Part shown: piece by piece, positions 1-49,315 of the stretch
Layout: each line of letters begins with the position of its first letter
How positions within the stretch are numbered: the first letter of the stretch is position 1
Assembly: GCF_905475395.1 (NCBI RefSeq)
Contig: NC_058342.1
Coordinates: forward strand, 16,526,640-16,590,639
Source of the DNA: Chrysoperla carnea
Lineage: Eukaryota; Arthropoda; Insecta; Neuroptera; Chrysopidae
Direction of reading: 5' to 3'
DNA: 64,000 nt
Translations under genes and position numbers: made by a program
Notes under the pieces: generated by a model
Told to the model about the DNA's origin: nothing
The model's database searches: none
What the model saw: only the letters and a program-made list of their open reading frames with translations

Positions 1-1675
1 TAATTTGTCTCACCTTGGACCAAAAGTTTGGTACACCCATGTTGTCGTTCAAATGTAAAGTTAAAAAAATGTTAGTGTTCTTGGATTATTTAGTGTAACT
101 AGGATGCAAAAAAACGTAAAAATCCAGCTCATTTAACGATAAGTTGAGTATTTTCCGAAATATCTTCTGAATACCTTCTAAATAAAAACTTTTCGTATCG
201 GCCTTCAGCGATATCTTAACAATTATTCGCCCAATCAATAAATGAAATCGATTATTTTTATTTTTGGCTTAAAATTAACTTGGATAAATAGTTTCATCCA
301 ATTTTAAAGCAAATTTTGTTAGTGAATTTCTTGATTTTTTTCAAAAGGATACTTAAAAAATGATTAAATATCGATAAAACTATTTTGTCTCCGATTTGAA
401 TAAAAATCGTTTTCTACAGTTATTTCTAAACTACAAAAATCGAGCCTCTTGGACGATTAAATGAATAATTTCTGAGATATAATCTAAAATTGTACAGGTT
501 TGATATCCTGGACCAATTTCTTCAATCGATACCGTAGAAACTTACCGTTCATGATCGTAACCACAAAAGGGCAGGTCAGAACGGACAAAAAATGAACGAA
601 AATTTCTATTCTTATCTCTGCTTAGGCTAAAAGTATACTCATCCCTAGAATTTTCGACTCCAATATTCTATTAAAATTCGTTTAAACTTATTGTTGTAAT
701 AAAATGGTCTCATCGGGATCATCTATAACTCATTCGACAGATTCTACTTTGTAGTTTATAAATAAGAAACTGAACGATTTAAACAAAAAACAACAAAAAA
801 TTACTTAGGAAGAAATATGCATTATGTGCATCAAAAACTTATACACTTTTCCGTAGATTCTTTATCTTTTGGTATCGCCTCCAAAATGTTCTTTGGATCG
901 TTCTGATCAAAAGCTCTCACCGTTAAGAAATTTTTTAATGAGTAGTTTACGATCTACGGTCTATATAACTAATGTGTACCTTTGATTGCCCGTACCTCGA
1001 AAACGAACTGTTAAAAATTTTTGTGACCATGAGAGTTTCTGATCAGAACGATCTGAAGAACATTTATGGAGCGGTTTGAAAAAGTTTCACAGGAAGCCAT
1101 TTTATTAGTAATACCGTTACTATAAATATAATACAAGTGTAGCTTTGATCGCCCGTAGCTCGAAAACTATTCGTTAAAAAGTTTTATGGCCGTGGCAACT
1201 TTTGATTAGAATAATCCAAAGAACATTTTAGGGTGACATGACAATAAGCTGAGGCATTATGTGACGGCAAACGTTAGCGTTGGGTCAAAAATATCACAGA
1301 TTGAGCTAAAACAAAATTTTAACTTAGTATTTCTTCAAAATTAATAATAATTATTTATTTTTGTAAAAAAAATATATTTATAAGGTAATTATTATTTTAT
1401 TATACATTTTTAAAGATTTTTGTAAAATTACAATTGTTTTTTGTAATTTTCTAAAACTGTTGATTTATTCTGAAACAAATAATTTGAAATTTACAAAAAC
1501 TGGTTATAATTTGATATACAATACTTTTTTTTATGAATTACAAAAAAATGTTGAAACTCAAATTAGTATAAAACAAGTGAAAACAAACAATTAACTAAGT
1601 TAATTGTTGAAATACCATGTATGGACGTTAATTACTCTGTCACATTACACATATATACATGTCACACACATATAG
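1..1675. other. Intergenic, AT-rich, no gene seen
   Basis: No open frame or domain is recognisable. About 880-1240 holds degenerate copies of a ~200-bp unit: the motif around 'ttctgatcagaacgatct' near 1035 is inverted relative to 'tggatcgttctgatcaaaag' near 895, and a further copy starts near 1200. About 1565-1625 resembles the tail of the dispersed repeat seen at 39340-39660 (shared 'aacaattaactaagttaatt'-like text). Nothing else is supported. Confidence 0.6.
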
Positions 1676-1684
1676 CTGATATAC
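1676..1684. repeat. 9-bp target-site duplication, left copy
   Basis: CTGATATAC lies immediately outside the left inverted terminus that begins AGCTCCGTATAC at 1685. The same nine bases follow the right terminus at 9463-9471. Nine-base duplications are typical of Foldback and Mutator-like transposons. One chance 9-mer match at exactly the predicted place is unlikely. Confidence 0.75.
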
Positions 1685-2520
1685 AGCTCCGTATACTTAG
1701 CAGATAAAATTGTTATTTTTCACTCAAACTATTTCCATTCATTTGGGAATCGTTTGGTAGGATTTAGGAATATAATTTTAGAATTTGGGAATTATTAGTT
1801 TTCCTGTAATTAATGATTCTTTTTTCAGCGTATAGTTAGCAGGTACGAAATTAAATCCACTTTTTATGTTATTCGAAAGGAAATCATTTGGGAATTACGA
1901 TAAACACGGTTTCAGAGTTTGGGAATGTATAATTAATTAATTACACCTATTTTTTAGTTGATTGATAGGTTATGTTAATTAACCGTACATTAATTGTTAT
2001 ATAGCAGTATGGTGCCAATATTCAAATATTACTGAATAATTTATTTTATAATTTATGTAAATGTTAAGTTTTATTTTGCCTTAAAACTGTTCTTATTCAA
2101 TTGGGAATCGTTTGGGAAGATTTAGGAATAGAATTTTATTATTTATTACTAATTAGTTTTCATTTAATTAATTATTCTTCAATATACTTAGAAGGTAAAA
2201 AATTAAATTTTCACCATTTTTACGTTATTTGATAATAATTTATATGGAGACTAATATAATTAATTTGGCAATCACATTATACACGGTTTCATCATTTCGG
2301 AAAATATAGTTAATTTATTAATTACATTTATTTTTTAGTTGACTTTTTATGGTTATATTAATGGCGGCAATAGTCAAATGTTACTTCATTTACAATAATT
2401 TTGTTTTTTTTAATTTATGTGAATGTTTATTTGACATTAAAACTATTTTTATTTAATCGGGAAATTTTCAAAGATCAGGAATCGTTTGTGAAGGTTTGTT
2501 TGAAGTGTTTTGGGAGTGAT
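1685..2520 (-). repeat. Left long terminal inverted repeat of the Foldback-like element
   Basis: This arm holds about two and a half ~360-bp units. The marker 'gggaatcgtttgg' or close variants recurs near 1745, 2103 and 2470. Each unit also carries a 'ggcggcaat' or 'ggtgccaat' box and a conserved 'ttatgtaaatgtta' stretch. The first ~700 bp pair with 8752-9462 in reverse complement. Confidence 0.75.
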
Positions 2521-2879
2521 TAATGTCAAAATATATATTTTCTATATGATGATTTGTATCATTTTTTATGTAGGTGTAGATTAATGCTTTATGCGAATCT
2601 TATTTTTATTAAAGATTAATAATTCGTCCAATAAAAAAAGTGTTAATTAGGAAGTGTGAAGAGGATGTGGATAGGAAGGAAAATTATTTAACTGTTTATT
2701 CTAATAAAGATAAATAAATTGATCATGAAATAAAAACTGCATTTGTATTGATAAAATTGTAAATAAAATATTTATTCTCTTATACAGGTACAGGTACAAG
2801 CTAGCGTAGGAGGTTAATTTTTAATATTAATTTTTTATCTTCTAAGAATACGCTTTGAAAAACTAATTAAGTACATGAA
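2521..2879. other. Spacer between inverted sub-repeat arrays, no gene seen
   Basis: AT-rich single-copy-looking sequence between the minus-oriented units (to about 2520) and the plus-oriented units (from about 2880). It contains several AATAAA-like strings but no open frame or domain. It is the loop of the inner foldback formed by 1685-2520 and 2880-4966. Confidence 0.5.
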
Positions 2880-3302
2880 AACTAATCAGTCCTAAATAAT
2901 AAAACTATATTCCTAAATCTTCACAAACGATTCCCAATTGAATAAGAACAGTTTTAAGGGAAAATAAAACTAAACATCTACATAAATTTTAAAAAAAATT
3001 ATTGTCAATAAAGTAACATTTGAATATTGCCGCCATTCATATAACCATAAAAAATCAACTAAAAAATAAATGTAATTAATTAAATAATTTTAGTGTCCCA
3101 AATGATGAAACCGTGTTTGATGTAATTCCCAAATTAATTAGATTAGTCTCCATGTAAATTATTATCAAATAACGTAAAAATGGTGAAAATTTAATTTTTT
3201 ATTTTCTAAGTATACGCTTTGAAAAACTTATTAATTACATGAAAACTAATCAGTCCTAAATAATAAAATTATATTCCTAAATCTTCCCAAACGATTCCCA
3301 AT

Positions 3303-3347
<45 letters not shown>

Positions 3348-4397
3348 TATTATTTCATAGAAAAAATATACAAAATTTGTACATGAAAATTGTCAAAAAA
3401 AAGAAAGAAAAGAACAGAGTAGATTTACATGTCCAAAAATTCACTGACACTATAATTGCATCTCTCCAGTAACAGCTGCTTGAGACTTACCTTGAACTTA
3501 TGTTCGTCGCGGACTTGACGAATTTCAACTGGGATTTTGTTGTAAATTCTTATCGTATTGTTGTATGGCCCTTTTAATATCGTGCTCAATCTCGTTTGCT
3601 GAACCTTGTATTCCCAGGTGGATCTAGTGATACGCGCTCTCATATTTTCCTTACACTCGAAAAGTTTTGGGTTTCTCTTTACGAATAGGGAACTTTCTAG
3701 AATGTAGATGTCGTATACTGTCAGAAGTTTATGCTTATTGAAGTAAGGTCTACAGTGCTCCTGTTGTTTTAAGGTGAACATTACACGAAGGCATCTTTTC
3801 TGGCATTTAAATATTTTTTCAGCATATCCCGCATTTCCCCAGAAGATTATTCCATACCTCAATATAGCATAAACTTGACTATAGTATACTTGTAGTAACC
3901 CATCAATCGGCAACTTAGACTTTAGAATCCTCAGTAAATATATAGATTTGTTGATTCTTTTTGCTACATAATCGATGTGTTTTTTCCAATCTAGATTTTT
4001 GTCTACAAATATTCCCAGGAATTTACTGCAGTCATCGATTTTAATTATTTGGTTGTCTATTATTTCTAGTTCTCCCATCTTTTCGCCATAATTTCCAAAT
4101 TTTATTGCTTGCGTTTTGCAGACGTTTAGTTTCAGACCATTATTTCTAAACCACTCAGATAGTTCAGCAATTGAATCATTGATTTCTGTTTTCAAATCTG
4201 CGCTGTTTTCAGATGAGTATACAATCGATATATCATCTGCAAACAGTATCGGGTCATTTTTTATATTAGAAACTATGTCATTGAGGTATATTATGAACAG
4301 ATATGGTCCCAATACACTTCCTTGAGGCACTCCTCTTTTTACTTCCTGATATGTTGATTCAATTCGATGATTATGACTCTGAATAACAACAGTTTTA
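3303..4397 (-). mobile_element. 5'-truncated non-LTR retrotransposon inserted in a sub-repeat
   Basis: Read on the minus strand, an ORF2 fragment is followed by a short 3' UTR with AATAAA near 3343-3350 and an (ATT)n tail at about 3303-3345. That is the usual 3' end of an insect non-LTR element. The 5' side is truncated near 4397, where the Foldback sub-repeat resumes ('taagaacagttttaaa'). The insertion interrupts the second ~360-bp unit, so it is younger than the array. Confidence 0.85.
3425..4397 (-). pseudogene. Reverse transcriptase fragment, Jockey/CR1-like non-LTR ORF2
   Basis: This is the C-terminal part of a non-LTR reverse transcriptase, which copies element RNA at a nicked target. 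The open frame runs from 4507, but its first ~37 residues come from flanking repeat DNA. The element part begins near residue 38. Visible are motif B (GVPQGS at ORF residues 59-64), the catalytic motif C as FADD (89-92, a variant of YADD), and the thumb and C-terminal region with the CR1/Jockey-type string HCRPYF near residue 247. The fingers, first palm motif, endonuclease and ORF1 are absent. No stop or frameshift interrupts the remaining frame down to TAA, so the copy is fairly recent but dead through 5' truncation. The clade is an inference from motif text; a tree would decide it. Confidence 0.88.
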
Positions 4398-4985
4398 AAT
4401 AAGAACAGTTTTAAAGGAAAATAAAACTTAACATTTACATAAATTAAAAAAACAAAATTATTGTCAATGAAGTAACATTTGAATATTGCCGCCATTAATA
4501 TAACCACAAAAAATCAACTAAAAAATAAATGTAATTAATAAATTAATTATACTTTCCCAAATGATGAAACCGTATTTAATGTGATTCCCAAATTAATTAG
4601 ATTAGTCTCCATGTAAATTATTATCAAATAACGTAAAAATGGTGAAAATTTAATTTTTTACCTTCTAAGTATACGCTTTGAAAAACTAATTAATTACATG
4701 AAAACTAATCAGTCCTAAATAATAAAATTATATTACTAAATCTTCCCAAACGATTCCCAATTGAATAAGAAAAGTTTTAATGAAAAATTAAACTTAACAT
4801 TTTAATAAATTAAAAAAACAAAATTATTGTAAATGAAGTAACATTTGAATATTGCCGCCATTCATATAACCACAAAAAATCAACTAAAAAATAAATGTAA
4901 TTAATAAATTAACTATACTTTCCCAAATGATGAAACCGTGTTTAATGTGATTCCCAAATTAATTATATTAGAAACTGATGTTAAA

Positions 4986-6455
4986 ATGGAGAACGAACGA
5001 ATTAAACTTGAACAACAATTAAATACTGAATTAATTATTAAAGATGAAATATTTGATGGAAATGATTTAGAATTTCATAATATTAAAAATGAAGAAACAT
5101 CTTTGACTTGTGAAGTGTGTGATAAAACTTTTAATAAAAAACACCATTTAAGTGAACATAAACGAATTCATACCAGGGAAAAATGTTTTTCATGTGAAGT
5201 GTGTGATAAATCATTTAATTATAAAAGCAACTTAGTTCAACATAAACGAATTCATACCAAGGAAAAACCTTTTTCATGTGAAGTGTGTGAGAAATCATTT
5301 ACTTATAAAAACGGTTTAATTCAACATGAACGAACTCATACAGGGGAAAAACCTTTTTCATGTGAAATGTGTGATAAAAAATTTACTCTAAAAAGTAATT
5401 TAATAAACCATAAACGAACTCATACAGGTGAAAAACGTTTTCCATGTGAAGTGTGTGATAAATCATTTACTTCTAAAAACAACTTAGTTCAACATAAACG
5501 AATTCATACCGGGGAAAAGCCTTTTTCATGTGAAATGTGTGATAAAATATTTACTCAAAAATGCAGTTTAAATGTACATAAACAAAGTCATGTAGGTGAA
5601 AAACGTTTTTCATGCGAAATGTGTGATAAATCATTTAATTATATAAACCTTTTAATTCAACATGAACGAATTCATACTGGGGAAAAACCCTTTTCATGTG
5701 AAATGTGTGATAAAACATTTACGTGGAAAAGTAATTTAATCAAACATAAACGAACTCATACAGGTGAAAAACCTTTTTCATGTGAAGTGTGTGAGAAATC
5801 ATTTACTTATAAAAACGTTTTAATTCAACATGAACGAACTCATACAGGGGAAAAACCTTTTTCATGTGAAATGTGTGATAAAACATTTACTCTAAAAAGT
5901 AATTTAATAAACCATAAACGAACTCATACAGGTGAAAAACCTTTTTCATGTGAAGTGTGTGAGAAATCATTTACTTATAAAAACGGTTTAATTCAACATG
6001 AACGAACTCATACAGGGGAAAAACCTTTTTCATGTGAAATGTGTGATAAAACATTTACTCTAAAAAGTAATTTAATAAACCATAAACGAGCTCATACAGG
6101 TGAAAAACGTTTTCCATGTGAAGTGTGTGATAAATCATTTAATAGAAAAATCGATTTAATTGTGCATAAACGAATTCATACTGGTGAAAAACCTTATTCA
6201 TGTGAAATGTGTGATAAAACATTTACGTATAACAGTGCTTTAACTTCCCATAAACGAACTCATACAGGTGAAAAACGTTTTTCATGCGAAATGTGTGATA
6301 AATCATTTAATTATATAAGCCTTTTAATTCAACATGAACGAATTCATACTGGGGAAAAACCCTTTTCATGTGAAATGTGTGATAAAACATTTGCGCGGAT
6401 TTCTTATTTAATTCAACATAAACGAACTCATACCAAAGATAAATCTAAATTGTAA
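4986..6455 (+). CDS. C2H2 zinc-finger protein, 16 tandem fingers
   Basis: A single uninterrupted frame encodes a likely DNA-binding nuclear protein. I start it at ATG 4986 (MENERIKLEQQ). An upstream in-frame ATG at 4938 lies inside the ~360-bp repeat and adds only repeat-derived residues. The 489-aa product has an acidic, Lys-rich N-terminus of ~37 residues without a recognisable ZAD, KRAB or BTB domain. Sixteen C-x2-C-x12-H-x3-H fingers then follow, joined by HTGEKPFS-type linkers, and the C-terminus ends KDKSKL. Fingers 3-4, 9-10 and 11-12 are near-identical pairs, and 7 and 15 are near twins, so the array grew by recent two-finger duplication. All Cys and His ligands are intact. It sits between the arms of the Foldback-like element and has no intron. 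A host gene captured by the element, or an element-borne gene, both fit. Targets are unknown. Confidence 0.9.
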   Translation: MENERIKLEQQLNTELIIKDEIFDGNDLEFHNIKNEETSLTCEVCDKTFNKKHHLSEHKRIHTREKCFSCEVCDKSFNYKSNLVQHKRIHTKEKPFSCEVCEKSFTYKNGLIQHERTHTGEKPFSCEMCDKKFTLKSNLINHKRTHTGEKRFPCEVCDKSFTSKNNLVQHKRIHTGEKPFSCEMCDKIFTQKCSLNVHKQSHVGEKRFSCEMCDKSFNYINLLIQHERIHTGEKPFSCEMCDKTFTWKSNLIKHKRTHTGEKPFSCEVCEKSFTYKNVLIQHERTHTGEKPFSCEMCDKTFTLKSNLINHKRTHTGEKPFSCEVCEKSFTYKNGLIQHERTHTGEKPFSCEMCDKTFTLKSNLINHKRAHTGEKRFPCEVCDKSFNRKIDLIVHKRIHTGEKPYSCEMCDKTFTYNSALTSHKRTHTGEKRFSCEMCDKSFNYISLLIQHERIHTGEKPFSCEMCDKTFARISYLIQHKRTHTKDKSKL

Positions 6456-6461
6456 AATAAA
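6456..6461 (+). promoter_or_regulatory. Polyadenylation signal after the zinc-finger ORF
   Basis: AATAAA begins at the base after the TAA stop of the zinc-finger ORF. Further AATAAA strings lie near 6650 and 6668, so the 3' UTR may be a few or about 200 bases long. This supports a real transcription unit but is weak in AT-rich DNA. Confidence 0.4.
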
Positions 6462-7129
6462 AATACCTATAAAATTTATTTAAAGGAGTAACGTGAGGAA
6501 GCACACTTGAGGAAGCTGGGGCGAGGTGAAGTATCCAATGGTCCAAATGTATGGAGGTTTAAGAACAAAACTTCCATCGAATCAAATTTTAATAATAATT
6601 GTCATACAAGCATTTATTGTCATAAAAACCGTTGAATATTATGAAAAAGTGAATAAATATTGCGTGAAAATAAAATTGATTTATATTTATTTGATTTTCT
6701 TGAAGTTCTTTTTATGATAAAAAATCTTGCACGCAGTGTAATATGAAATTAATACGAATGTCAAGTTGGTACTACTGATACTGTTTATATCATGGTACAA
6801 TTATTGGGATCTGACATATGGGCGGGGCTAAAAAAACATGGCTGACATAAAGTGACAAATTTTAATAATAACGTAGCAATACATATTCTTTATGCAATTT
6901 TTCAAGAAGAGAATGATTAATATTAATGAAATTTGTTGTTGGGGGTAAACAAAACCGAGTAATCGTAATTTTACTGAATATGAAAGACTTTTGAAAGCAA
7001 GTCATGTGATTAAATGTCGAAAAATCAAATCGAAGGTGATGAGAATGTGCTCAGTTTAACGTCATACTGTTTACAAAACAGTATTTAAATAAATTGAATT
7101 GATTTTTTCTGATTTTTAATTGTCTTTTA
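6462..7129. other. Region downstream of the zinc-finger ORF, no gene seen
   Basis: A short 63-codon open frame at 6526-6717 has no domain and biased AT-rich composition; I do not accept it. The stretch 6490-6540 is locally GC-richer ('gaagctggggcgaggtg') than its surroundings. No RNA gene or repeat family was recognised. Confidence 0.4.
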
Positions 7130-7530
7130 CCTATCCTTCTCTTCTTTCCGTCTGTCCTACCCTTTTCTTTCTTATTCCTTTATCAAATTTCATGATTTTC
7201 CCTTTATTTTCAAGCTTATTTGGTTTAGGATTGGTGAAAATATACACACAATCTTAAAATGTACTGCTTAAAAAAAAACAGACAAATAATTTGAACGAAA
7301 AAATATCCATAAATTTAAATAATAAGTTTATTAGGCAAACATGTTAGTTGTTATAGATGCTCTCCTAATACGCCAGACATATAATTACTATTTTAAAATT
7401 TTAAATACATGTTCTCCTAATATTAATTAAAAAACTTTTGACTTTTTTCTCCACTTTTCTACCATATTTATTGTTTGTTATTTTTAACTACGGGAGCGGA
7501 ATTCCTCACGGATCGAGCTGCTATAAATTA
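7130..7530 (+). repeat. Dispersed Helitron-like repeat, copy 1
   Basis: It shares the ordered blocks 'ttccttatcaaat...'-like text, 'caagcttatt', 'aataagtttattaggcaaac', 'atgttagt' and a terminal 'gagcggaattcctcacgg' with copies at 8190-8410 and 40290-40590. In the better copies the 3' end reads 'gggtcgagCTAGT', which fits the CTRR end of Helitrons; here it is degraded to 'gatcgagctgct'. Confidence 0.55.
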
Positions 7531-7822
7531 TTTATAAGTTGTACGAGAGAATAAGTATGGAAAATTATCGATTATTATCGCGATTTACCACTCATATAAT
7601 AGCACTCCGTGGTTTTTTTTCTTTAATAACCCATTGAACAATTCCTGCAATAAAAACATATGGTTCTACATTATAATTTCATCATCTATGTAATAATATT
7701 GCCTATATATTTCAATAAATAGGAATTATTTTATGAAAGTATGAAGTTGGTAAATTTGTTATCCAACAATTTGTCACGATATGTTTAAAATGGGAAATAC
7801 ATTAAATTATGTTATTTTTCAG

Positions 7823-7963
7823 GTAGCTGGAACAATTATAACCTATGAATTGGTATTGATACAGTTTAATGCTCAAGATGGCGATGAAAATTTAATACCA
7901 CCAGCATACAATATTTCTGATACCATAATTTTACCACCCTGTACAAAATATGTTGATAATTAA
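7823..7963 (+). pseudogene. Orphan gustatory-receptor-like terminal exon
   Basis: A strong 3' splice site (TTATTTTTCAG at 7812-7822) opens in phase 0 onto a frame beginning VAGTIITYELVLIQF. Insect gustatory receptors end with a phase-0 intron followed by a short exon coding the last membrane helix with the signature TY-x5-QF; here it is TYELVLIQF, residues 7-15 of the exon. A 31-residue polar tail follows and the frame ends in TAA with AATAAA just after (about 7965). No upstream receptor exon was found on the plus strand, so this is probably a captured or stranded gene fragment rather than a working receptor. The tail is longer than usual for the family. The assignment rests on a short motif plus the intron phase; it could also be an unrelated membrane-protein exon. 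Confidence 0.45.
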
Positions 7964-8189
7964 ATAAAATTTTATAAATTTTATGGGATTTTTTATAAAG
8001 ATGGCTCATATTCTGAGAATCGTATTATGTATACGATGTGGAATGAGAAAATATTTAAACGATTGGATTAAATATGGCACATTTATTTAAACCACTCTGT
8101 AAAATATCGTCTATGATTGTGTAAGTTGGTAACCAATAAATTTGATGTACTTAATTATTTTGACGGAAATAAAACTTATTTTTTTAATC
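7964..8189. other. No gene seen
   Basis: AT-rich sequence following the receptor-like exon, with AATAAA-like strings. No domain or repeat family recognised. Confidence 0.4.
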
Positions 8190-8410
8190 TTATTTATTAT
8201 AACTCTAGCAAGTTTTTTTCTGTCCTATACTTATCTTTCTTATTCCTTTATCAAATTCCATGATTCACACCTCATTTCAAGCTTATTGTGTCTAGGGTTG
8301 ACGAAAAATATATTCACAGTTTAAAAATGTACCGCTTAGAAAATTTAAATAATAAGTTTATCAGGCAAACATGTTAGCTTTTACAAATGATCTCCTAATA
8401 AATATAACAG
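8190..8410 (+). repeat. Dispersed Helitron-like repeat, copy 2 (3' truncated)
   Basis: It matches 7130-7400 and 40290-40500 block by block ('tttcttattcctttatcaaa', 'tcaagcttattgtgtctagg', 'ggcaaacatgttag') and stops after 'ctcctaata', before the conserved 3' end. Confidence 0.5.
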
Positions 8411-8427
8411 AGATAATTTAAAGTAAG

Positions 8428-8738
8428 TACCATGAAGGTAATAGAACAGGAGAAAGATCGCTATGTACTAAAGCATTAGCGTACCTGTCCCTAAAAATTT
8501 GTAGAATTTATAGTTCATTTTTAAGCCACCAGCCGCGCTGTCATCAAGAAGTAGTATCTGTGAAGTTAGCTGTTGTTGTTAGCATAATGTACAAATTGAT
8601 ATATCATTTGAAATTAGCGCACAACAGCCCGCTTTTATTGATACTACATATTGATCGCAGCGCCTCACTTATTTTATCCATATTGCGGGGACAATATTTT
8701 CTATAGCGATCGTTCTCCTGCCTATATGCTTCATGGTA
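8428..8738. mobile_element. Small MITE nested in the Foldback-like element
   Basis: Termini are imperfect inverted repeats: TACCATGAAGG...CAGGAGAAAGATCGCTAT on the left pairs with the reverse complement of ATAGCGATCGTTCTCCTG...TTCATGGTA on the right, about 38 bp each. Length is about 310 bp with no coding capacity. It lies directly inside the right arm. Confidence 0.6.
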
Positions 8739-8751
8739 AGTACAATGCATG

Positions 8752-9462
8752 AAGTAACATTTGAATATTGCCGCCATTCATATAACCATAAAAAGCAACT
8801 AAAAAATAAATGTAAATAATTAATTAATTATACTGTCTCAAATGATGAAACCATGCTAAATGTAATTCCCAAATAAATTAGATTAATCTCCGGGTAAATT
8901 ATTATCAAATAACTAAAAAATGGTGAAAATTTAATTTTTGACGTTTTGAAAAACTAATTAATTAAATGAAAACTAATCAGTCCTAATTAATAAAATTATA
9001 TTCCTAAATCTTCCCAAACGATTCCCAATTGAATAAGAACAGTTTTTATGCAAAATAAAACTTAACATTTACATAAATTAAAAAATAAATTATTCAGTAG
9101 TATTTAAATATTGGCGCCATACTGCCATATAACAATTAATGGTTCAGGTGTACGGTTAAATAACATAACCTATAAATAAACTAAAAAATAGATCTTACTC
9201 TTATTAATTAATTATACATTCCCAAACTCTGAAACCTCTTTTATCATAATTCCCAAATGATTTCCTTTCAAATAACATAATATTAATTGGATTTAATTAC
9301 CTACCTGCTAACTATACGCTGAAAAAATAATCATTAATTACAGGAAAACTAATAATTCCCAAATTCTAAAATTATATTCCCAAATCCTCCCAAACGATTC
9401 CCAAATGAATGAAAATAATTTGAGTGAAAAATAACAATTTTATCTGCTAAGTATACGGAACT
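8752..9462 (+). repeat. Right long terminal inverted repeat of the Foldback-like element
   Basis: About two ~360-bp sub-repeats ('acgattcccaa' near 9019 and 9399). The outer ~700 bp pair with 1685-2395 in reverse complement, with good conservation at the tip (caattttatctgctaagtat). It ends ...GGAACT at 9462. Confidence 0.75.
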
Positions 9463-9471
9463 CTGATATAC
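9463..9471. repeat. 9-bp target-site duplication, right copy
   Basis: CTGATATAC immediately after the right terminus, identical to 1676-1684. Confidence 0.75.
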
Positions 9472-9483
9472 CCATATAATACT

Positions 9484-9930
9484 AGAATTTGAGCATAATA
9501 TGCGCTTTCACGGGTAAACAGTGATGTTAACGTAAAAATGTTTCAAACAAAAGTTGTTTATTTTTTTATAATGGAACATTTTTTACATTTAAACTTTTGT
9601 TCGATCTCTAACGATTTACAACGTGGGTCCTACGGACCCAAGACTCAATTGACCTATATTGCTCATTTACGAACTCGACCTCACTTTTTACGTCTTAAGC
9701 ACACTATAAAAATTTCAGCTTGGCATCTCTTTTCGTTTTTGAGTAATCGTGATGACAGACGAACAGACGACAGACAGACAGACAGGCAGACAACCGGAAA
9801 TTGACTATTTAGGTGATTTTATGAACACCTATACCAAAATTTTGTTCATAGCATCAATATTTTTAAGCGTTACAAACTTGGGACTAAACTTAATATACCT
9901 TGATATATTTCATATACGTGGTATAATCAT
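9484..9930 (+). repeat. Dispersed 'acagacgg' repeat family, copy 1
   Basis: Ordered blocks shared with 21815-22215, 29560-30010, 39340-39610, 39690-40165, 54140-54470, 54860-55150 and 60175-60300: 'aaagttgttta', a stretch resembling 'ctcaattgacctatgttgc', an (ACAG)/(ACGG)-rich tract, 'gattttatgaacacctata', 'agcgttacaaacttgg', then a terminal inverted motif like 'tatacc...ggtata'. A short open frame at 9538-9804 recurs in other copies but is not conserved as protein; I treat it as non-coding. Confidence 0.7.
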
Positions 9931-10328
9931 TCAAGAATTTACAAACAATTTTGTTATTTTTGTAACACAAAGTTGAAATTACATTACCTATTGTAATTCT
10001 ACCAAAAGTTTTTACTCCTAACACGTATTATAATTTGCTGTAACTGTTAATATAATGGTTCGCGTTCATCAATGGCGTTTAACCTTTTTGTTTTTCCCTT
10101 TGGAAGTCCATGATAAAATACCTAAATAAGAAAAAAAACTAATATTAGTTTTCAAAACAAATAATAAGATTCAATTCCGAAAAACAAACTTTGTTTTCGA
10201 ATATGATTTCTGCAATTTAAATAATAGATCCGGCAAAATAAAATTTTCACATGGAAAATTTTTGCAGGATCTCGTTTAAAACATGTTCCTGAACGTAAAA
10301 GGGCAGGTTTCCCGTGGGTAACCCGGTA

Positions 10329-11206
10329 GAATATTGTTTTGTATTGCTAATTTTTTTAAACAAATAAGTAATATTAACCGAATTGCTTTGGGAAAAATTG
10401 TTTTATGAATTGGGGTCAAAAGTTATAAAAAATGTTCTTAGGAATTATTTAGTCCAATTTTCGAGTAAAAAAAAAACAATTTTCATTCCTCAAAAAGTCT
10501 ATTCCTCCGTAGAGTAAAGCTTACTCAACAACATTATGCAAAAACCTTTGACCTAATTGCATTTAAAGTGCTTGATTGTTAATTATTGAGAGAGCTCGTG
10601 TAAAACCATCCAAAAATAACGATTTTCTATTCTATACATGCTAGAAAGATGGGATTGACACCAATCGACTTGAAATAAAGTCAAATTTTCAGAAAAGTTC
10701 GAATATTAACATTTTCCACAACGCAACTCTCCGGAAAATTTAAAAAAACGATTTTCCGGAAGGCTGCGTTGTGGAAAATCAATTTTTTTTTATAATTTTC
10801 TGTTAATTTGACTTTATTTTGAGTCGATTGGTGAAAGCATCATCTTTCTAGCATGTATAGAACAGAGAGTCGTTATTTTTGGGTGGTTTTTCGCGAGCTC
10901 TCTTAACAATTAGTAATCAAGCACTTAAAATGTAATTAGGACAAAAGTTTTTGCGGGATGTTGTTGAGTAAACTTTACTCTACAATTGAAAATTTTATAC
11001 ATATTAAAAATATGATTTTTTCAGACGGATTAAAATCTTTTTTTCTTTCGTTTTTTCAAATTTTATGAATTTTTTACTCGAAAACTGGAGGGCTTAGAAA
11101 AAAATGTCTAAGAACACTTTTTTTTTACTTGTGACCCCAATTACATGAAGCAAGTCGGTCAATATTACTTATTTGTTTAAAAAAAATTAGCAAAACAAAA
11201 CAATAT
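10329..11206. repeat. Palindromic (foldback) element, ~880 bp
   Basis: Left and right halves are reverse complements with small differences. The centre is near 10738, where 'ccacaacgcaac' faces 'gctgcgttgtgg'. Matching pairs include 'gaaagatg' with 'catctttc' and 'gcttgattgttaattattga' with its complement near 10915. There is no coding capacity. As RNA it would fold into a long hairpin. Confidence 0.8.
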
Positions 11207-11209
11207 CCT

Positions 11210-13885
11210 CAGGGCCGGATTTAATCTTTTGCCGCCATTGAAATCTCACTCAAAGTTATGTAGTTTTGATATCTTATTTAAAAATAAACAAAACTATTGA
11301 GTCTCTTTGCACTCATTGTAGAACGTAAGTAGTTTTTAACCTTTTTCTAAAAACGATCGCTCTGCACTACAGTTTGTTACAGCTAAAGGTCGTTTGCTCG
11401 CAAAAGTTTTAGAAGATCGGAAGGTCAATTTTTTTCTATCGTTTTTTCAGTGCAACAAGCATAGCAAAAATACCCAAATTTAAATTTTATGATTCCAGAA
11501 AATTAAAAAATTAAATATTACCATTTCAAATCTTCAAAGAAATTAATTAATTAAATTTTTTCGAAGACAAATTTTCACTTAAGGTGCCAAAATTATGATT
11601 TACAGTTATTTCGATTTGACAAATATTGTATAAGTCGAATTTCTTGAATTATCTATTAAATAATGTATGATTCATTAAAAAAATAAAAAATTTCCATTCA
11701 GAAATTTTGATGACAATAAGAAAATTTTTTTCCACTCTAGAAAATTTGCCGCCCTGGGCACTAGCCCCGACTCCCCCTAGTGTAAATCCACCGCCGGGTT
11801 AGGTAAAAGATGTCAAGGATCAAAAAATGGGAATCGTTTAAAATATAAAATCCAATAATTTTTTTAAATGCTCAATAAAAAGAATATGGGTGTCCGGAAG
11901 TGAGGTAAATCGAAAAAGTACAAGTTCACATGGATATGATTTTGTTGAGTACACTTAGACAAATATTTTCTACCAGGCGGTTTCCATAAAAATCTACTGG
12001 CGCGGAGTTTTTTCGGTTTTATTTCCTCGAATAAATTGAAACCTGTTCATTTCGATGCAAAAAATTAGAATTTATTTCAATCGGAATAAAACTTTTATCT
12101 AATTCATTGAAAATTCAAAATGCTTTTCAATCGAAATGAAATTGAATTTTCATTCTACGAAGAGGATTCACGATGAAAATGAGATAAAGCCTTTTTGACG
12201 ATGAGTATCGTCAAAAAGACGAATATACGATCGATTCACATTACGTGTACTTTGGCGTGAAGTCAACGCAGATTATCGACACACATCGGGCAAAGATCCT
12301 AGGTATTATGAAATTATAAAGCAGCGAAAAACCATTGAGAAACTTAATGTAAGGAATCTTTTAAATTAAAAAATACATGGGCCCACTTCGCAGATGCCAA
12401 TTATTTTCGCTTTATACTTTCGTACGACGTACGTGGTTCGATTCGTCTGTCGAAAAATTCGATTTTATATTTTAAAGTTTCGATCTACTATACTCCAATC
12501 GTTCATTAAAATATAAGCATTCGAAATAAAACTAAAGAAAATACCTTTTTTTTCAAATCCAAATTTTTCGACGAATTTTCTTCGTCGGCTTCTTGTGTAT
12601 GTGGAACTTTATCTGGAACATTATCCAGGGTATTAGCTTCTTTATTTGCTTTTTGAACATTCATAATTTAATTTAAAGTCCAATAAAATATATTAAACTA
12701 ATAATTTTTATTTTATTTAACTCAGTTTTAACGAGACAGATTTAAAACGTCCTCAATTTAGTGAAACCTAATTTCGAATAACTTTTGTTTTATAAACAAA
12801 TTATGCATTTTTCTAAGCTTGCTCTGATTAAAATCTAAACGATAAGTTATTCTAGAACATACTAGATCATTCTATTCGTTAAATTTTTGTCGTTCGATAA
12901 TTTATCCTACATATTTTCGTATCCATAGTAACCATAGGCATTTTTACAAATTGGGGTGTACTTAAGTAATATTGTCTGTCTCTAAGCGCGGATTCTGAGA
13001 GGGTAAATTGGGGTGTGCGCCTCCTCCAAAAGAAATCAACTACAATCAAACCTGGATGGATAACCATATACTGCCGATTTAGCCTTCTGAAACCTCGATA
13101 AGTGAGGAACAGGAAACATCTATAAGAGAAAGTGGTTTTTCTCTCTTTTCCCTAGTGTATCTCCACAAGTTAGACTGCTACTTGCCTGCGCCTCTAAGCG
13201 CGACAGTCGACTAACTGACATTGTTTTTGTCAAAAACCTTTATAAGTGAGAAAAAACCAATTCTGAACTTATATAAGCGCGAAACCAAAAAATAAAATAT
13301 TCGGATCCTATTTGTGAAAAGACAGCGGTGGATTTACACTAGGGGTAGTCGGAGCTAGTGCCCAGGGCGGCAAAATTTGGCAAGTGGAAAAAAATTTTCT
13401 TATTGTCATCAAAATTTCTGAATGGAAAGTTTTTATTTTTTTAATTAATGATACATTATTTAATAGATAATTCAAGAAATTCGACTTATACAGTATTTGT
13501 CAAATCGAAATACTGTAAATCATAATTTTGGCACCTTAAGTGAAAATTTGTCTTCGAAAAAATTTAATTAATTCATTTCTTTGAAGATTTGAAATGGTAA
13601 TATTTGATTTTTTAATTTACTGGAATCATAAAATTTAAATTTGGGTATTTTTGCTATGCTTGTTGCACTGAAAAAACGATAGAAAAAAATTGACCTTCCG
13701 ATCTTCTGAAACTTTTGCGAGCAAACGACCTTTACACTGAGTTTCCAAACGTAGAAATCGCAATAATAGAATATTTATTACGTTAGCTGTAACAAACTGT
13801 AGTGCAGAACGATCGTTTTTAGAAAAAGGTTAAAAACTACTTACGTTCTACAATGAGTGCAAAGAGACTCAATAGTTTTGTTTTT
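11210..13885. repeat. Inverted pair of a ~560-bp repeat with 1.5-kb spacer
   Basis: 11290-11800 and 13322-13882 are reverse complements ('ttgcactcattgtagaacgt' near 11309 against 13843). The facing inner ends read '...cccctagtgtaaatccaccgc' and 'gcggtggatttacactagggg', a probable element terminus. The spacer holds pogo-like sequence at 12940-13310. It could be one large foldback or two copies inserted head to head. Confidence 0.75.
12940..13310. repeat. Pogo-like non-autonomous DNA element fragment
   Basis: It carries the repeated 'cctcgataagtgagga', 'tataagcgcg' and 'ctctaagcgcg' strings typical of pogo/Tigger-class non-coding regions, and resembles 41574-42570. No transposase frame survives. 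Confidence 0.4.
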
Positions 13886-13889
13886 TATG

Positions 13890-14290
13890 AGGGTTACAGA
13901 CTGGTCAAGGTACGGATGCTAGAGTCAAATTAGGCCAGTTTAATTTAAAGACTGAGGTTAAGCCTAAAGAACGGATTCTCAAATAGGGCATAGAGGGATG
14001 ATTTAGGTACACACGAGAAAAGAATACTATCGAATATAGGATTTAAATAATATATTTTTATTTAATATAATACAACAATAATTTCAAAAAAATAAAAAAA
14101 AAAACACAATTTTTTCTCAGTTAGTTTGTTTTAAAAATTTTCATATACTCATATCAAAGCTGCAATTTTTTATTTCGTTTTATCCAGACGTTTCGAGACA
14201 TCATTAGTTTTTTTTTTCGTTTTTTTAGAATTTATTTATAATATACATATTTTTTAAATAGAATAGAAAAACCATACAAAAGCATAAATA
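13890..14290. other. No gene seen
   Basis: Contains A/T runs (14080-14110, 14205-14225) only. Confidence 0.4.
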
Positions 14291-14296
14291 ATAGTA

Positions 14297-15212
14297 CAGT
14301 CAAAATTGATTATAACGACATTGCTTATAATGATAAATCGTTTATTATGACAAATTGGCAAGTTTCTGACTGAATCCAAATATAACATACCGTCAATATA
14401 CCGTTTATAACATACATCGGATAAAACAACATATCTGGATGAATGGGATTTTAACGTTAAGATGTCAACTGATTTTTTCATTGATTGAAAAGGCAAAAGA
14501 CACCTACTACTTCACTTTTTAATGTGCTGTGCCATATTTGCTCTTCTAGTCTTTTATAATTGCGATAGTTTTCCTAGTTTTTTATAAACTTTGTAGTTTG
14601 TGTTCTTATAAATATTTGGTACATATAATTTTATGTAATTCACTAACAAAATTTTTACACCTATAGTTCTTTTTTCGATCGCTAGATAGAGTCTTCCTTA
14701 GCATTAAAATACTTACATCACTCAATTTTGAGTAGTCTTTAATTAATATTGAGTAGTTTTCACTTAAATTTAATAATTTTCACTTTATTTTGAACCTTAT
14801 AAACAGCGTGGCCTTAACTACAAAGTTAACTGTTGTAAATGACAGTTGTTCATTTTTTTGTAAGGAACAACTTCATAAATTTCTATCTACAATGTAGTCA
14901 ATGTTGTTAGGAGCTTACGTTATATTATAGGAGCTTAATTTAGCCCAATCGTAAAAAGACAAGCTGAAATACTTTACTTTTGTCGTCTGTTTGGGAAAAT
15001 TCTTTGTCCACCTAAATGATCAGGTGGGGGCGCCCCAATCTGACCATATGGTATTACAGCTTGTCTTTTGACGGCCAGGCTTTCATTTTTCTTTAGAAAG
15101 GGATGATTTTTCTGTGATTAGCTTCTGGTGACGTTTTTTTTCAGAACGACTGTCGGATATAAAGACCATAATTTTAGATCTCTTCAATGTTGTTATAACC
15201 GGATTTTGACTA
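14297..15212. mobile_element. Pogo/mariner-type non-autonomous element with TA target site
   Basis: The left terminus after TA reads CAGTCAAAATTGATTATAAC; the right terminus in reverse complement reads TAGTCAAAATCCGGTTATAAC, again next to TA. The interior has 'ttataatgataaatcg', 'cgtttataacatac' and similar TTATAA-rich text common in pogo-like elements. Length 916 bp, no transposase recognised. The same opening text recurs at about 61313 and 61605. Confidence 0.65.
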
Positions 15213-15892
15213 TAATGAACGTAAAATATTTTGTTTTTTTTTTTTTTAGTTTTGTCATGTGTGTATGTATAAATATACAAATTTTTTTATATATTTTTTA
15301 TAAGGCCTTTACAAAAATGTTTGACCTGAAACTTTTATTAAAATTATCAATTGAACATCAAACGAAAAAATATTAAACGAAATTTTGTAGTTTCTCTGTT
15401 AAGGAAAGGAGTTCTCAAAAATAAAAATTTTGTAGTGCATTTAATTCTGATAAAAAAATTAACAAATCGAAATAAGGTAGTTGATTGTTTTTTAAAGTTA
15501 TACGGCCACTACAAAAGAACCACTATCTATTATAGCAGCTTGATATGAAGACAACATTCTAAGAACAAAGTTCTTTTGCAGTTTTTGAATCCGATGTTCC
15601 ATTAACGAGATAGAGTTTTGTTAATTATCCTTTCTAACGATAACTAAAGAAGACCCACCTCGTTAATAATACATCGGAGCAAAAAAAAAAATTTTTCTTA
15701 GAATATAATAGCTTTGGTACAAACTGTATTAGTCAGTAATTATGAGGGAGCCAGAATAATATACGCATTTTTAACGATGATGGCTCTAGAAAGTTAGCAC
15801 TCCGTATTTTGTTTTTCTTTATAAAATAAATAAATATGGAGTGCTAATTATTTAGATAAAAGTGAGTTAGACATACTTTTTAGGGCCGGAAC
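15213..15892. other. No gene seen; one small hairpin
   Basis: Short AT-rich open frames only. At 15794-15847 'ttagcactccgtatttt' pairs with 'aaatatggagtgctaa', an imperfect stem with a ~22-base loop. Confidence 0.4.
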
Positions 15893-16072
15893 TTCAGCTA
15901 AAGAGTCCCCGGGACAAAACAAATTGTGAAAGCTCCATTTAAAAATTATTTGTGGTAATAATATGGTATAAATGAAAAGTATGATGCAATATGTTTAGAT
16001 CTGGTTTGAAAATTTTCCCTTTTTATCCTCTGCCAAAGGGTTCCGCCAGTTGTTCCATTGTGGTTCCGGCCC
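15893..16072. repeat. Possible small MITE
   Basis: GGGCCGGAAC at 15893 and GTTCCGGCCC at 16063 are perfect 10-bp inverted termini 180 bp apart. In this AT-rich context the match is notable but short. Confidence 0.3.
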
Positions 16073-16751
16073 ATGTATTTTTTATTTTGGGCGCACAGTT
16101 TAATAATTATGAACTAAACTATCTGTTAACGTGCACCATTGGTAAAAAGAGACGTCAAATAATGTCCACTGACGATAATGCGGCTAATTTTTATTTTTTT
16201 GTGTCTATATCAATCAACAGTCAGTCTATTCTTCTCTATGGAGCGAATAATTTGATCGTAGATCAGATATATTTGATGGTTGAAAAATACATATTTTTTA
16301 ATATGCTTAGTGCCACCAAATATATTTGATGTATATAAGGTGTTGGAATTTTACTGGCCGCAAATACGTCTCGGTAATTAAAGACTCTAAGCTAAGACTG
16401 ATGAATTTTAAAGAGTTCATATTAATTGAGTCTATTATTCTGAATTTTAAAGAATGTATGACGTTCTTGTAGCAAATGAACAATATTCTGTTGACATAAG
16501 GCAAATTTGGTTATTTCTTAATCATAAAAATGTATTAATGTTTTTCCCAGCGCTTATGGTTAAATTTGATGAAACATATGCGAGGTTTCCTATTGCTTTT
16601 ATGTTAAATATTGAATTTTTAATTGCACACAATTGGTTTATTAAAATTTACTAGAAAAAAATTATCTAAATCTTAAATTTAATGTTAACAGCGTATTAAA
16701 AATACAAAATGATTTAGTGACCATATAACTTTCAAGTGAGTATATTCAGGT
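16073..16751. other. No gene seen
   Basis: Short overlapping open frames without domains; AT-rich. Confidence 0.4.
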
Positions 16752-17413
16752 CAGTGCTGGATTTGATGGTGATAGCACCCTAGACTCAAGGCATTGCAAG
16801 GCGCCGTTTTGTAACGAAATATAATCCGACGGCAAGAAAATATATAAGGACGAGAAACTATATAAGGACGAAAGTGGAGAGGTTAGGAGAAAAAAAGGCG
16901 CCTATCTGGGCGAGGTCTAATCCTCGATTGTTGCGTACCTTGTACTGCACATCAAGCTGTCTTTTGTTTTCAATTTTTTGTCTTTTGTTTTCAATCAATT
17001 GAAAGTTATTGAAAACAATTTCAATTGTTTCAATTGTCAAGTACGCAACGAAGGATGACTAGACTCCGCCCAGATTAGCACCGTAAATTCAGCTACGGCC
17101 GCTCATAGCTCGACATAGGAAGTTTCTACGCTGAGGTTCTATCTGGGCGGGATCTAGTCATCGGTCGTTGCATACTTGACAATTTCAAGTATGCAACGTT
17201 TTCAATCACTTTCAATTGATTGAAAACAAAAGACAGTATGATGCGCAGTAGAAAGTACGCAACTGCCGAGAGCTAGGCCTCGCCTAGATAGGTGCCTTTT
17301 TTCCTGCTATCCTCTCCAAGTTTCACGTCCTTATATATATGTTCTTGCCGCCGGTGTGTATTTTGCCTTGCAATGACTTGGATCTAGGGTGCCATCACCA
17401 TCAAACCCGACAG
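16752..17413. mobile_element. Foldback/MITE, ~660 bp with GC-rich arms
   Basis: The left arm (gctggatttgatggtgatag...) and right arm (...ccatcaccatcaaacccgac) are reverse complements over most of the element, including 'tatctgggcgaggtctaatc' facing 'gaggcctcgcctagatagg'. The middle is a further inverted set around 'gtacgcaacgaaggatgac' and 'cagattagcac'. The 'acttgacaatttcaagtatg' hairpin lies near 17175. No coding capacity. Confidence 0.75.
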
Positions 17414-19115: not shown

Positions 19116-19137
19116 TTTATTTTCGATATAATTTATT
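19116..19137 (-). promoter_or_regulatory. Polyadenylation signals of Cullin-2
   Basis: On the minus strand AATAAA occurs at 19137-19132, just after the stop codon, and again at 19121-19116, followed by an A-rich tract. They could give a very short 3' UTR; a longer one is possible. Confidence 0.45.
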
Positions 19138-19139
19138 TT

Positions 19140-33594
<14,455 letters not shown>

Positions 33595-48784: not shown

Positions 48785-49315
48785 CATCTAGAATATTCTC
48801 AACTAGCTTGATACCCACCCGCTTCACTGGGTTTAAAAGTAAAAACCACCGCTTTATAGCCTCCACCTCTTTTGATATAACTTATCAAAGTTCCATAACA
48901 CATAAAGGGATTGTTTTACGCAGCTAAAAGGTATGCACAGTTTTAAATTTTTTAAATTGTAAAGTAGTCATAAGTCATTGAGTATATCAGAAAAGGTAGC
49001 CATGAATGTTGACATTTACTATTTTATATTTTTACAGAAATCTTTAATTTATGGTTCAAAATGATCCATCCGTGATCATCATTTTGAAACATTAATTAAA
49101 GATTTCTGTTAAAATTTAAAATAGTAAATGTCAGATTAAATTTATTAAAATTTTTTTTTAGTATCTGTATCTTTTTAATTTATAGCTCATGTGTTATTCT
49201 GATGTATGAGCTATATTGCTATACAGTTTCATTAAAAACCATTCGCTAGTTTTTGCGTGAAAGCTCAACAAACAAACAAACATCCTTACTTTCACATTTA
49301 TAATACATAGATGCC
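48785..49315 (-). mobile_element. Helitron-like dispersed repeat, copy A
   Basis: Read on the minus strand: 'tattataaatgtgaaagtaa', 'tttcacgcaaaaactagcga', 'catacatcagaataacacat', then a 3' part 'cccagtgaagcgggtgggta' and 'tcaagCTAGT'. The CTAG|T end with a GC-rich segment just before it suggests a non-autonomous Helitron. Related copies: 55310-55825 and 60312-60600. Confidence 0.6.

Follow-up and report, generated by a model that had tools for sequence, protein, structure and literature searches.

In the TE/FB composites of Ising in Drosophila melanogaster, as described in PMC6431247, DNA lying between two foldback elements moves as a unit. In Ssk-FB4, presented as a Drosophila "Pack-MULE", a nearly complete host gene lies within FB4, an element with ~700-bp inverted repeats, and was reported at three loci with distinct 9-10-bp duplications; the account in PMC8277862 explains its origin by fork stalling and template switching.

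The locus examined here lies in a 64,000-nucleotide stretch of Chrysoperla carnea DNA (NC_058342.1, forward strand, positions 16,526,640 to 16,590,639; the window). A first-pass annotation had read positions 1685-9462 as a foldback-like transposon carrying a zinc-finger gene and a receptor-like exon. The best reading of the further analysis is that a Foldback/Mutator-like family has repeatedly transposed zinc-finger genes as composites, or by capture and then transposition.

Structure of the unit and its target site

The window contains a 40-mer tip beginning CCGTATACTTAGCAG in exactly two places, 1689-1728 (+) and 9419-9458 (-), in inverted orientation, and no such pair was seen in 100 shuffles. 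The two arms are complementary over 1685-1867 and 9280-9462 (94%) and over 1988-2179 and 8950-9141 (93%), with 88% in a gapped alignment of 1679-2389 and 8749-9469, and direct-repeat spacings of 358-384 bp within them mark sub-repeats of ~360 bp. The unit is flanked by a perfect 9-bp duplication, CTGATATAC (1676-1684 and 9463-9471). The window holds one further copy, on the other strand at 48982, with 0.29 copies expected by chance. The repeat analysis therefore bore out the matching tips, the sub-repeated inverted arms and the perfect duplication described at first pass. The features, in window coordinates, are as follows.

1570..1684 (approximate limit), + strand: left part of the dispersed repeat that served as target
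1676..1684, + strand: left target-site duplication, CTGATATAC
1685..2470, + strand: left arm, a terminal inverted repeat with ~360-bp sub-repeats and outer tip AGCTCCGTATACTTAGCAG
2471..2822, no strand given: spacer, found in other copies too (e.g. L011, L013, L020)
2823..3312, - strand: inner right-type arm of a nearly complete smaller element, first part
3313..4394 (approximate limits), - strand: reverse-transcriptase fragment (RVT_1) lying within the arm, its tail AAT-rich
4395..4971, - strand: remainder of the inner right-type arm, outer tip missing, running directly into zinc-finger gene DNA at 4970/4971
4986..6455, + strand: intact C2H2 zinc-finger ORF of 489 aa with 16 canonical fingers
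6456..7595, + strand: 3' flank of the zinc-finger gene, about 89-99% common to other loci
7651..8215, + strand: gustatory (trehalose/sugar) receptor gene fragment, last exon at about 7823-7963
8430..8735, no strand given: short nested dispersed repeat, with the receptor fragment on its left and the right arm on its right
8749..9462, - strand: right arm with outer tip
9463..9471, + strand: right target-site duplication, CTGATATAC
9463..9927 (approximate limit), + strand: right part of the target repeat

The long inverted arms stand, but the picture of a unit with two simple arms does not, as a smaller element (1685-4971) lies inside it. The zinc-finger ORF likewise follows the sub-repeats, though only after this inner element, which is broken at about 3313-4394 by the reverse-transcriptase fragment, presumably of non-LTR type. 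The unit is thus made up of one nearly complete element and one arm, and not of cargo bracketed by two complete elements.

When joined, the flanks of the unit form a dispersed repeat, 10 uninterrupted copies of which cross the insertion site. These paralogues bear on the question of an empty site, as a single 9-mer, CTGATAWTC, is present in 9 of the 10, and so it is in all three full-length uninterrupted paralogues of another type. Relative to L030, L012 and L046, the window's copy of the target repeat is missing ~73 bp beside the site, whereas it is short of only a few bases relative to the 10 uninterrupted copies. The tips, the 9-bp duplications and the uninterrupted target repeat support the proposal that 1685-9462 is a single mobile unit carrying the gene, and the whole unit very probably transposed together with its zinc-finger gene. 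The further notion of a single element in which the gene is resident is better replaced by that of a composite of element, cargo and arm.

The zinc-finger and receptor cargo

The zinc-finger ORF begins with an ATG at 4986 and has no inner stop, confirming an intact multi-finger gene inside the unit. Its N-terminus is shorter than those of paralogues beginning MASKSFQNENTDLF. The arm cuts the gene on its 5' side at the 4970/4971 junction. It is the only zinc-finger ORF among those listed for the window (three of at least 90 aa touching 1-20000 and six of at least 110 aa in 20000-64000). Simple Nei-Gojobori dN/dS values of 0.41-0.80 were obtained in 10 zinc-finger pairs of at least 346 codons, rows for L030 (at most 6 codons) and R2 (14-50 codons) being dropped, and are only a hint of past constraint because fingers recombine. 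The R2 frame meets a stop after 56 codons. Across 90 fingers of six related proteins, variation peaks at helix positions -1, 2, 3 and 6, as is usual for zinc-finger proteins.

The open frame at 7754-7960 was matched by the C-terminal ends of both Trehalose_recp (2e-5, over the cut-off) and 7tm_7 (0.0066, under the cut-off), so that the receptor-like exon was upheld, as a last exon only. The receptor exons missing from the window remain at C1:2115500-2118750, apparently the parent gene, and the most fitting interpretation of the window piece is a last exon that has strayed from a gene with its remaining exons still present elsewhere. The point at which it was joined, from a different context, lies at about 7595. 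A sister unit on C2, consisting of one complete element and an arm, is 98% identical over window positions 6752-8434 and has the same receptor-arm junction with its own separate duplication; the short dispersed repeat at 8430..8735 has no counterpart at that place in it.

Related units in the genome

Tips of the same type were found at 138 places in the genome, so the termini of the window unit do recur in other copies. The arms are 93-96% identical at many of these copies and alignable over about 610-800 bp. Among the 37 pairs of tips that face inward and lie no more than 16 kb apart, 20 had identical 9-bp flanks and one more was off by one base, whereas none of 1118 other left-right tip pairings had a 9-bp match at 0 or 1 mismatch. 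This test used 35 left and 33 right flanks, all from one assembly; set aside were tips lacking a tested partner, additional inner tips where copies are tandem or double-tipped (L016, L028, L030), inner tips of the C2 unit (the left one) and of L079, and, at single loci of the L074 type (e.g. L075), the second tip. The window was the starting case, and the C2 unit entered the sample via a zinc-finger search.

Perfect 9-bp duplications were found at the outer tips of eight large units (>5.5 kb), and seven of the eight contain polydactyl zinc-finger DNA, drawn from several subfamilies. Zinc-finger DNA was present in none of the 11 small units examined; over all 19 duplication-bounded units examined, 12 are without a zinc-finger gene. 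The question of whether zinc-finger DNA lies inside other copies is thus answered in the affirmative for the large units with the exception of C5:13968202, and arms flanking unrelated DNA at random were not seen. Duplication-bounded large units elsewhere in the genome are as follows.

C6:13085432, 7774 bp: ORF of 645 aa with 19 fingers
C1:35203999-35215587, 11589 bp: an ORF of 421 aa between two complete elements
C1:102120424, 9544 bp: a complete element, a 593-aa ORF of another subfamily and an arm
C2:91132822, 5714 bp: zinc-finger DNA, with a complete element and an arm
C1:99418709, 7930 bp: broken frames with at least 13 fingers
C5:64886180, 9731 bp: two ORFs of 479 and 433 aa
C5:13968202, 7949 bp: no zinc-finger ORF

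The duplication at the C2:91138535 end is perfect, as seen in a targeted look in 500 bases. Both elements of C1:35203999-35215587 have both tips, with the duplication at the outer tips only, and in the two C1 composites the inner tips do not share the outer duplication. The large units look composite, with an element, then cargo, then another arm or element.

No duplication was found at the large tip pairs C1:137825100, C2:78256331, C2:95686488, C2:95813074, C5:63082205, C5:63101475, C5:66183037 and C5:66547291. Zinc-finger DNA nevertheless lies between tips lacking a duplication at C2:95686488-95696348, C5:66183037-66192165 and the smaller C5:66188321-66192165, indicating that not every arm-bracketed gene demonstrably moved as a unit.

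In R1, R2, R4, R5, R6, R7 and L034, loci that are not all independent, a tip precedes the zinc-finger start codon by 38-114 bp. A tip was found within about 5 kb of 11 of 37 zinc-finger loci, against a mean of 0.26 and a maximum of 4 in 2000 local shifts. The control drew on 96 of the 138 tips (38 were not among the tips listed and 4 on C6 were omitted) and on 38 zinc-finger loci hand-merged from 89 matches, one on C6 and the window being omitted. In the paralogues L039, L040, L043, L044, L046 and L048 no tip lies closer than 160 bp to the start codon.

Transposase and superfamily

No transposase was found inside the copies examined, and none of the 14 genome matches to PF10551 (MULE transposase) falls within an examined copy, as compared by position only. 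An ORF of 1055 aa (P0001) beside a right arm on C6 was rejected as a candidate, as no left arm is present within 12.5 kb left of the tip and it matched nothing in PDB and nothing over the cut-off in Pfam (best E 0.49). A P-element-type transposase fragment abutting the arm in L026 was read as a neighbour or insertion.

With no transposase in any examined copy, Foldback serves as a structural label for the family, and any superfamily assignment is putative. The family has the long inverted arms, made of internal tandem repeats and variable between copies, that mark the Foldback structural class, and its 9-bp duplication (20 of 37 inward pairs) and arms of about 610-800 bp match FB4 by structure. 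Long terminal inverted repeats and a 9-bp duplication are also Mutator-like features; duplications are about 8-11 bp in the Mutator-like superfamily and 8 bp in the P superfamily. Those of Phantom are given as 8-10 bp (PMC6446971). The P superfamily and Galileo, with duplications of 7-8 bp, are ruled out on this feature by the 9 bp found here, and the family is probably Mutator/FB-like and non-autonomous. Two elements around cargo with an outer-only duplication, at C1:35203999-35215587, are a feature of composite transposons, and terminal inverted repeats enclosing host gene DNA that has a parent copy elsewhere (the receptor exon and the zinc-finger paralogues) are one of Pack-MULE or Pack-TIR elements.

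Origin of the units

Composite assembly is the probable route for the window unit. A polydactyl zinc-finger gene would have had a small foldback-type element close by on its upstream side, and a second family arm, joined to the neighbouring sugar-receptor last exon, would have come to lie downstream, leaving the gene bracketed by arms. A transposase acting in trans may then have used the two outermost tips, placing everything between them in a copy of the dispersed repeat and duplicating CTGATATAC. We infer the enzyme, the order of the steps and a tandem duplication by which the receptor exon came to lie downstream. Insertion close upstream of start codons, followed by outer-tip transposition, best explains why zinc-finger genes recur in the units.

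Capture inside one element in the Pack-MULE or Pack-TIR style, by template switching or gap repair and then transposition, is possible, though less expected. It has an animal precedent in Ssk-FB4 (PMC8277862) and agrees with a window unit that has no two complete elements and a receptor piece joined from another context; as the inner tip of the inner element is gone, capture into one element would give a similar picture. However, C1:35203999-35215587 has two complete elements, C1:102120424 and C2:91132822 each have one complete element and an arm, and the cargo comprises entire genes together with flanks of several kb, against a median of 224 bp reported for Pack-TIR elements in PMC8277862.

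It is improbable that segmental duplication or ectopic arm-arm recombination spread the genes, with the mobile look being secondary. R1, R2, R6 and R7 do have several kb of sequence downstream of the gene in common, and no second downstream arm was seen within the stretch examined for R2, R6 and R7, which carry an element on the gene's 5' side, suggesting that zinc-finger genes spread by other duplication too. However, the perfect duplications of the eight large units, unmatched among the 1118 control pairings, and the target repeat found uninterrupted elsewhere argue against this as the source of the units.

A zinc-finger gene resident in the family as its own DNA-binding factor is very unlikely: many copies do have zinc-finger DNA next to the edge or tip of an arm, but the cargo comes from several subfamilies with differing N-termini, most duplication-bounded units have none, and there are paralogues with no nearby tip. 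Chance enclosure by arms of an abundant gene family is hardly credible since, although 764 first-look candidates (40 scored) resemble zinc-finger DNA and the family is large, only ~1% of random 8-kb stretches would be expected to contain it, taking 764 as a rough number, against seven of eight units, the local shifts fall far below the 11 loci near tips, and the window has no other listed zinc-finger ORF.

Returning to composite transposition, C2H2 zinc-finger arrays expand quickly in many animals, which is usually ascribed to tandem duplication. A DNA transposon family with entire zinc-finger genes of several subfamilies, and insertion footprints on several chromosomes, offers a testable route for the spread of DNA-binding repertoires and a system for asking whether mobile zinc-finger genes regulate their carrier element. 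It is a doubtful extension that the family prefers sites a few dozen bases upstream of zinc-finger starts and has been their main disperser and amplifier in this lineage, with arms acting as promoters and some proteins recognising the repeats; if so, a transposon and its would-be repressors travel together.

Comparison with known systems

As in Ising's TE/FB composites, cargo between foldback elements is mobile as one unit. However, those span hundreds of kilobases in the account of PMC6431247, whereas the units here are 5.7-11.6 kb, each with a 9-bp duplication, and one gene class is carried again and again. Ssk-FB4 likewise has a host gene inside a foldback element with long inverted repeats and copies with distinct duplications, but as described it involves one gene at few loci (PMC8277862), in contrast to several zinc-finger subfamilies and units with complete inner elements.

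The Tm1 family (Mutator/Foldback) of root-knot nematodes also has composite terminal inverted repeats, 9-bp duplications and non-autonomous members; its description in PMC3169594 includes members with a Phantom-like transposase, none being found in a copy here, and internal motifs of ~14 bp as against sub-repeats of ~360 bp. Galileo, a foldback-like member of the P superfamily involved in rearrangements, has similarly long arms but 7-bp duplications rather than 9 bp, according to PMC2775673. A literature search of partial coverage returned no comparable pattern; the Drosophila FB composites and Ssk-FB4 are precedents, and the dominance of a single gene class in the cargo looks new.

Structure of the window unit and its target site

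The first-pass annotation had read 1685-9462 of the window as one foldback-like transposon with which an intact zinc-finger gene travels. The tips (the outer ends of the inverted arms), the arms, their sub-repeats, the 9-bp duplication, the 16-finger ORF and the receptor-like exon were each confirmed in the window sequence. This is a real, well-marked mobile unit, and the earlier reading was correct in the main. However, its inner make-up is more complex than was described, as an extra right-type arm, a reverse-transcriptase fragment and a nested repeat are also present:

1685-2470: left arm, the first part of the unit from the left, followed by a spacer
2823-4971: inner right-type arm, interrupted by the reverse-transcriptase fragment
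4986-6455: zinc-finger ORF, right of the inner arm
ending at 7595: 3' flank of the zinc-finger ORF
between this flank and the nested repeat: receptor fragment including the last exon
8430-8735: short nested repeat
8749-9462: right arm

The outer tip of the inner right-type arm is missing, and the arm joins the zinc-finger gene at a point that is coding sequence in the paralogues; the window ORF starts at what is an internal methionine in them. Instead of two complete elements, the unit contains a single arm plus an element that is nearly complete, and it behaves like a foldback composite transposon, showing most of the structural features tested for that kind. Two cullin-like frames (window 28236-32002, minus strand) have no relation to it. 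The window (C6:16526640-16590639, 30% G+C) is eukaryotic, as cullin exons and the reverse-transcriptase fragment indicate, and its receptor family points to an arthropod.

With a single copy of the duplication between them, the outer flanks aligned in one piece to a dispersed repeat. The empty site is represented by paralogues of this target repeat, not by the same locus in another individual: ten uninterrupted copies cross the insertion site, and nine hold a single 9-mer, CTGATAATC or CTGATATTC, in place of the window's CTGATATAC; no clear 9-mer is present in the tenth, L032 (70% identity). Three copies of a longer type of the repeat cross the site, with one CTGATATTC each; compared with two aligned copies of this type, the window copy is shorter by ~73 bp immediately to the right of the insertion point.

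A family with a 9-bp target duplication

A search of the assembly (559 Mb, 337 contigs) for the same termini, as suggested by the first-pass annotation, found other copies: 70 forward and 68 reverse tips at up to two mismatches, with 100 tip places listed. The reversed tip pattern, used as a control, had no match in the whole genome, and left-arm DNA gave at least 107 matches (40 of 169 candidates scored). The nine bases just outside the tips were compared among the fetched copies, and were identical in 20 of 37 inward tip pairs (left and right tip facing each other) up to 16 kb apart; of the remaining pairs, one differed at a single base, one at two bases and 15 at three or more. As only two of 1118 other pairings came as close as two mismatches, all the rest having three or more, the family transposes with a 9-bp target duplication.

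At several loci (C5:66558382-66559550, L016, L010, L022 and L030), elements are apparently nested at one site inside an arm, with TCAGGTGTA or its complement nearby, resulting in double tips ~315 bp apart; one short copy has a perfect duplication of this 9-mer. Five tandem tips spaced ~251 bp apart (C5:63082205-63083208; L056, L028) stand at the left end of two paired elements with an ankyrin-repeat ORF (520 aa scanned) between them; the flanks of this pair show no matching duplication.

No transposase was found inside any of the fetched copies, and the 14 MULE-domain matches in the genome all lie outside them, 12 being at C1:138.27-139.77 Mb, within the final 2 Mb of this contig. At L026:7798-8274, part of a P-element-type transposase, with HTH and RNase H-like N-terminal domains, adjoins an arm. 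A 1055-aa open frame (P0001; L031:533-3700), with no Pfam match over the cut-off and no PDB match, adjoins a right arm; the 12.5 kb retrieved on the left side of the tip contain no left arm.

Zinc-finger genes as cargo

On whether zinc-finger DNA lies within other copies, a check suggested by the first-pass annotation, large and small units gave different answers. Polydactyl zinc-finger DNA was found in seven of the eight duplication-bounded units larger than 5.5 kb, including that in the window.

Zinc-finger cargo of the other large units
C6:13085432-13093205: ORF of 645 aa, 19 fingers
C1:35203999-35215587: ORF of 421 aa, 11 fingers
C1:102120424-102129967: ORF of 593 aa, 15 fingers; other subfamily
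C2:91132822-91138535: zinc-finger DNA from sequence search; middle of unit not fetched
C1:99418709-99426638: broken gene, with 13 canonical fingers in a 685-aa frame and more frames after it
C5:64886180-64895910: two ORFs of 479 and 433 aa

In the remaining unit, C5:13968202-13976150, two elements enclose ~4.3 kb that contain no zinc-finger ORF, and one frame of this cargo had no Pfam match. None of 11 smaller units fetched whole (ten with identical flanks and one with a mismatch; two more were not fetched inside) contained a reading frame with two or more fingers. Three of the large units, at C1:99.4, C5:13.97 and C5:64.9 Mb, had been picked from tip pairing only, with zinc-finger cargo expected before their interiors were analysed, and two of them carry it. 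Because the C2 unit was found via a zinc-finger search, it is not unbiased in this count; without it and the window, the starting case, the fraction is five of six. A weakly lipase-like frame (L038:3865-4353; Pfam Lipase 0.024, under the cut-off) also lies in the cargo of C1:35203999-35215587 (11.6 kb).

A tip was found 38-114 bp upstream of the zinc-finger start codon at seven loci. Five of these (R1, R2, R5, R6 and R7) have 5' flanks related to one another and cannot all be counted as independent; R4 and L034 have different flanks. Of 37 zinc-finger loci, at least 11 lie within ~5 kb of one of 96 listed tips, whereas 2000 local shifts gave 0.26 such loci on average and never more than 4. Joint duplication of genes and elements raises the observed count, and the shift control retains regional clustering but not shared descent. 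Mutator elements have a general preference for the 5' ends of genes. As a BTB-BACK-PHR ORF (L037:4107-5339) also starts ~250 bp from a tip, such a preference may be enough to explain the zinc-finger association. Values of dN/dS below 1 in the longer zinc-finger alignments hint at past constraint only.

Assembly of the units

Composite transposition accounts directly for C1:35203999-35215587, which has two complete elements, both tips on each, and CTTATTAAC at the outermost flanks, with inner flanks that do not match. The unit at C1:102120424-102129967 has the order complete element, gene, arm between outer flanks of CACCGGGCC, and the C2 unit the order arm, receptor fragment, zinc-finger gene, complete element between flanks of CTATTTTGT, a duplication that was perfect when 500 bases were fetched at the far end. 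For units other than the two-element one, capture via template switching is a fair alternative, and was put forward for Ssk-FB4 (PMC8277862). By either route the outcome is the same, a zinc-finger gene moving with the arms.

The window and C2 units share 98% identity over 6752-8434 and 97% over 8736-9214 of the window, and have the receptor/arm junction in common. They thus represent one composite present at two sites, with a separate duplication at each. A further, almost complete copy of the receptor block occupies C1:2117409-2117975, and a fragment lies at C1:83276582. More exons precede the copy at C1:2117409-2117975: Trehalose_recp matched two overlapping frames there (1.4e-14 and 1.2e-5), and two further frames tested had no match; the last exon, after these frames, has a match of the same type (1.5e-5). 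This gustatory receptor locus looks like the parent gene of the window exon. At this locus the receptor is followed by an arm with its tip and then by the zinc-finger gene. Read in the direction of the zinc-finger gene, the window and C2 units begin with the element, followed by the zinc-finger gene, its flank, the receptor exon and an arm. The latter order would result if the C1 arrangement had been duplicated in tandem and the outermost tips had then been used.

Some arrangements fit this picture less well. Zinc-finger DNA also lies between inward tips with non-matching flanks (C2:95686488-95696348, C5:66183037-66192165 and C5:66188321-66192165), and several more large tip pairs have no duplication. 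At R2, R6 and R7, the element is 5' of the gene and no second arm was found downstream within the fetched stretch. Some genes have therefore been copied otherwise, or footprints have been lost.

Comparison with known systems

Among the papers listed in the literature search, none came up on a foldback family whose large mobile units hold one gene class so often. Related arrangements are described in three reports: Tm1 of nematodes combines foldback arms with a Phantom-like transposase (PMC3169594), Ising TE of Drosophila involves mobile segments between foldback elements (PMC6431247), and in Ssk-FB4 a host gene was moved by FB4 with 9-10-bp duplications (PMC8277862).
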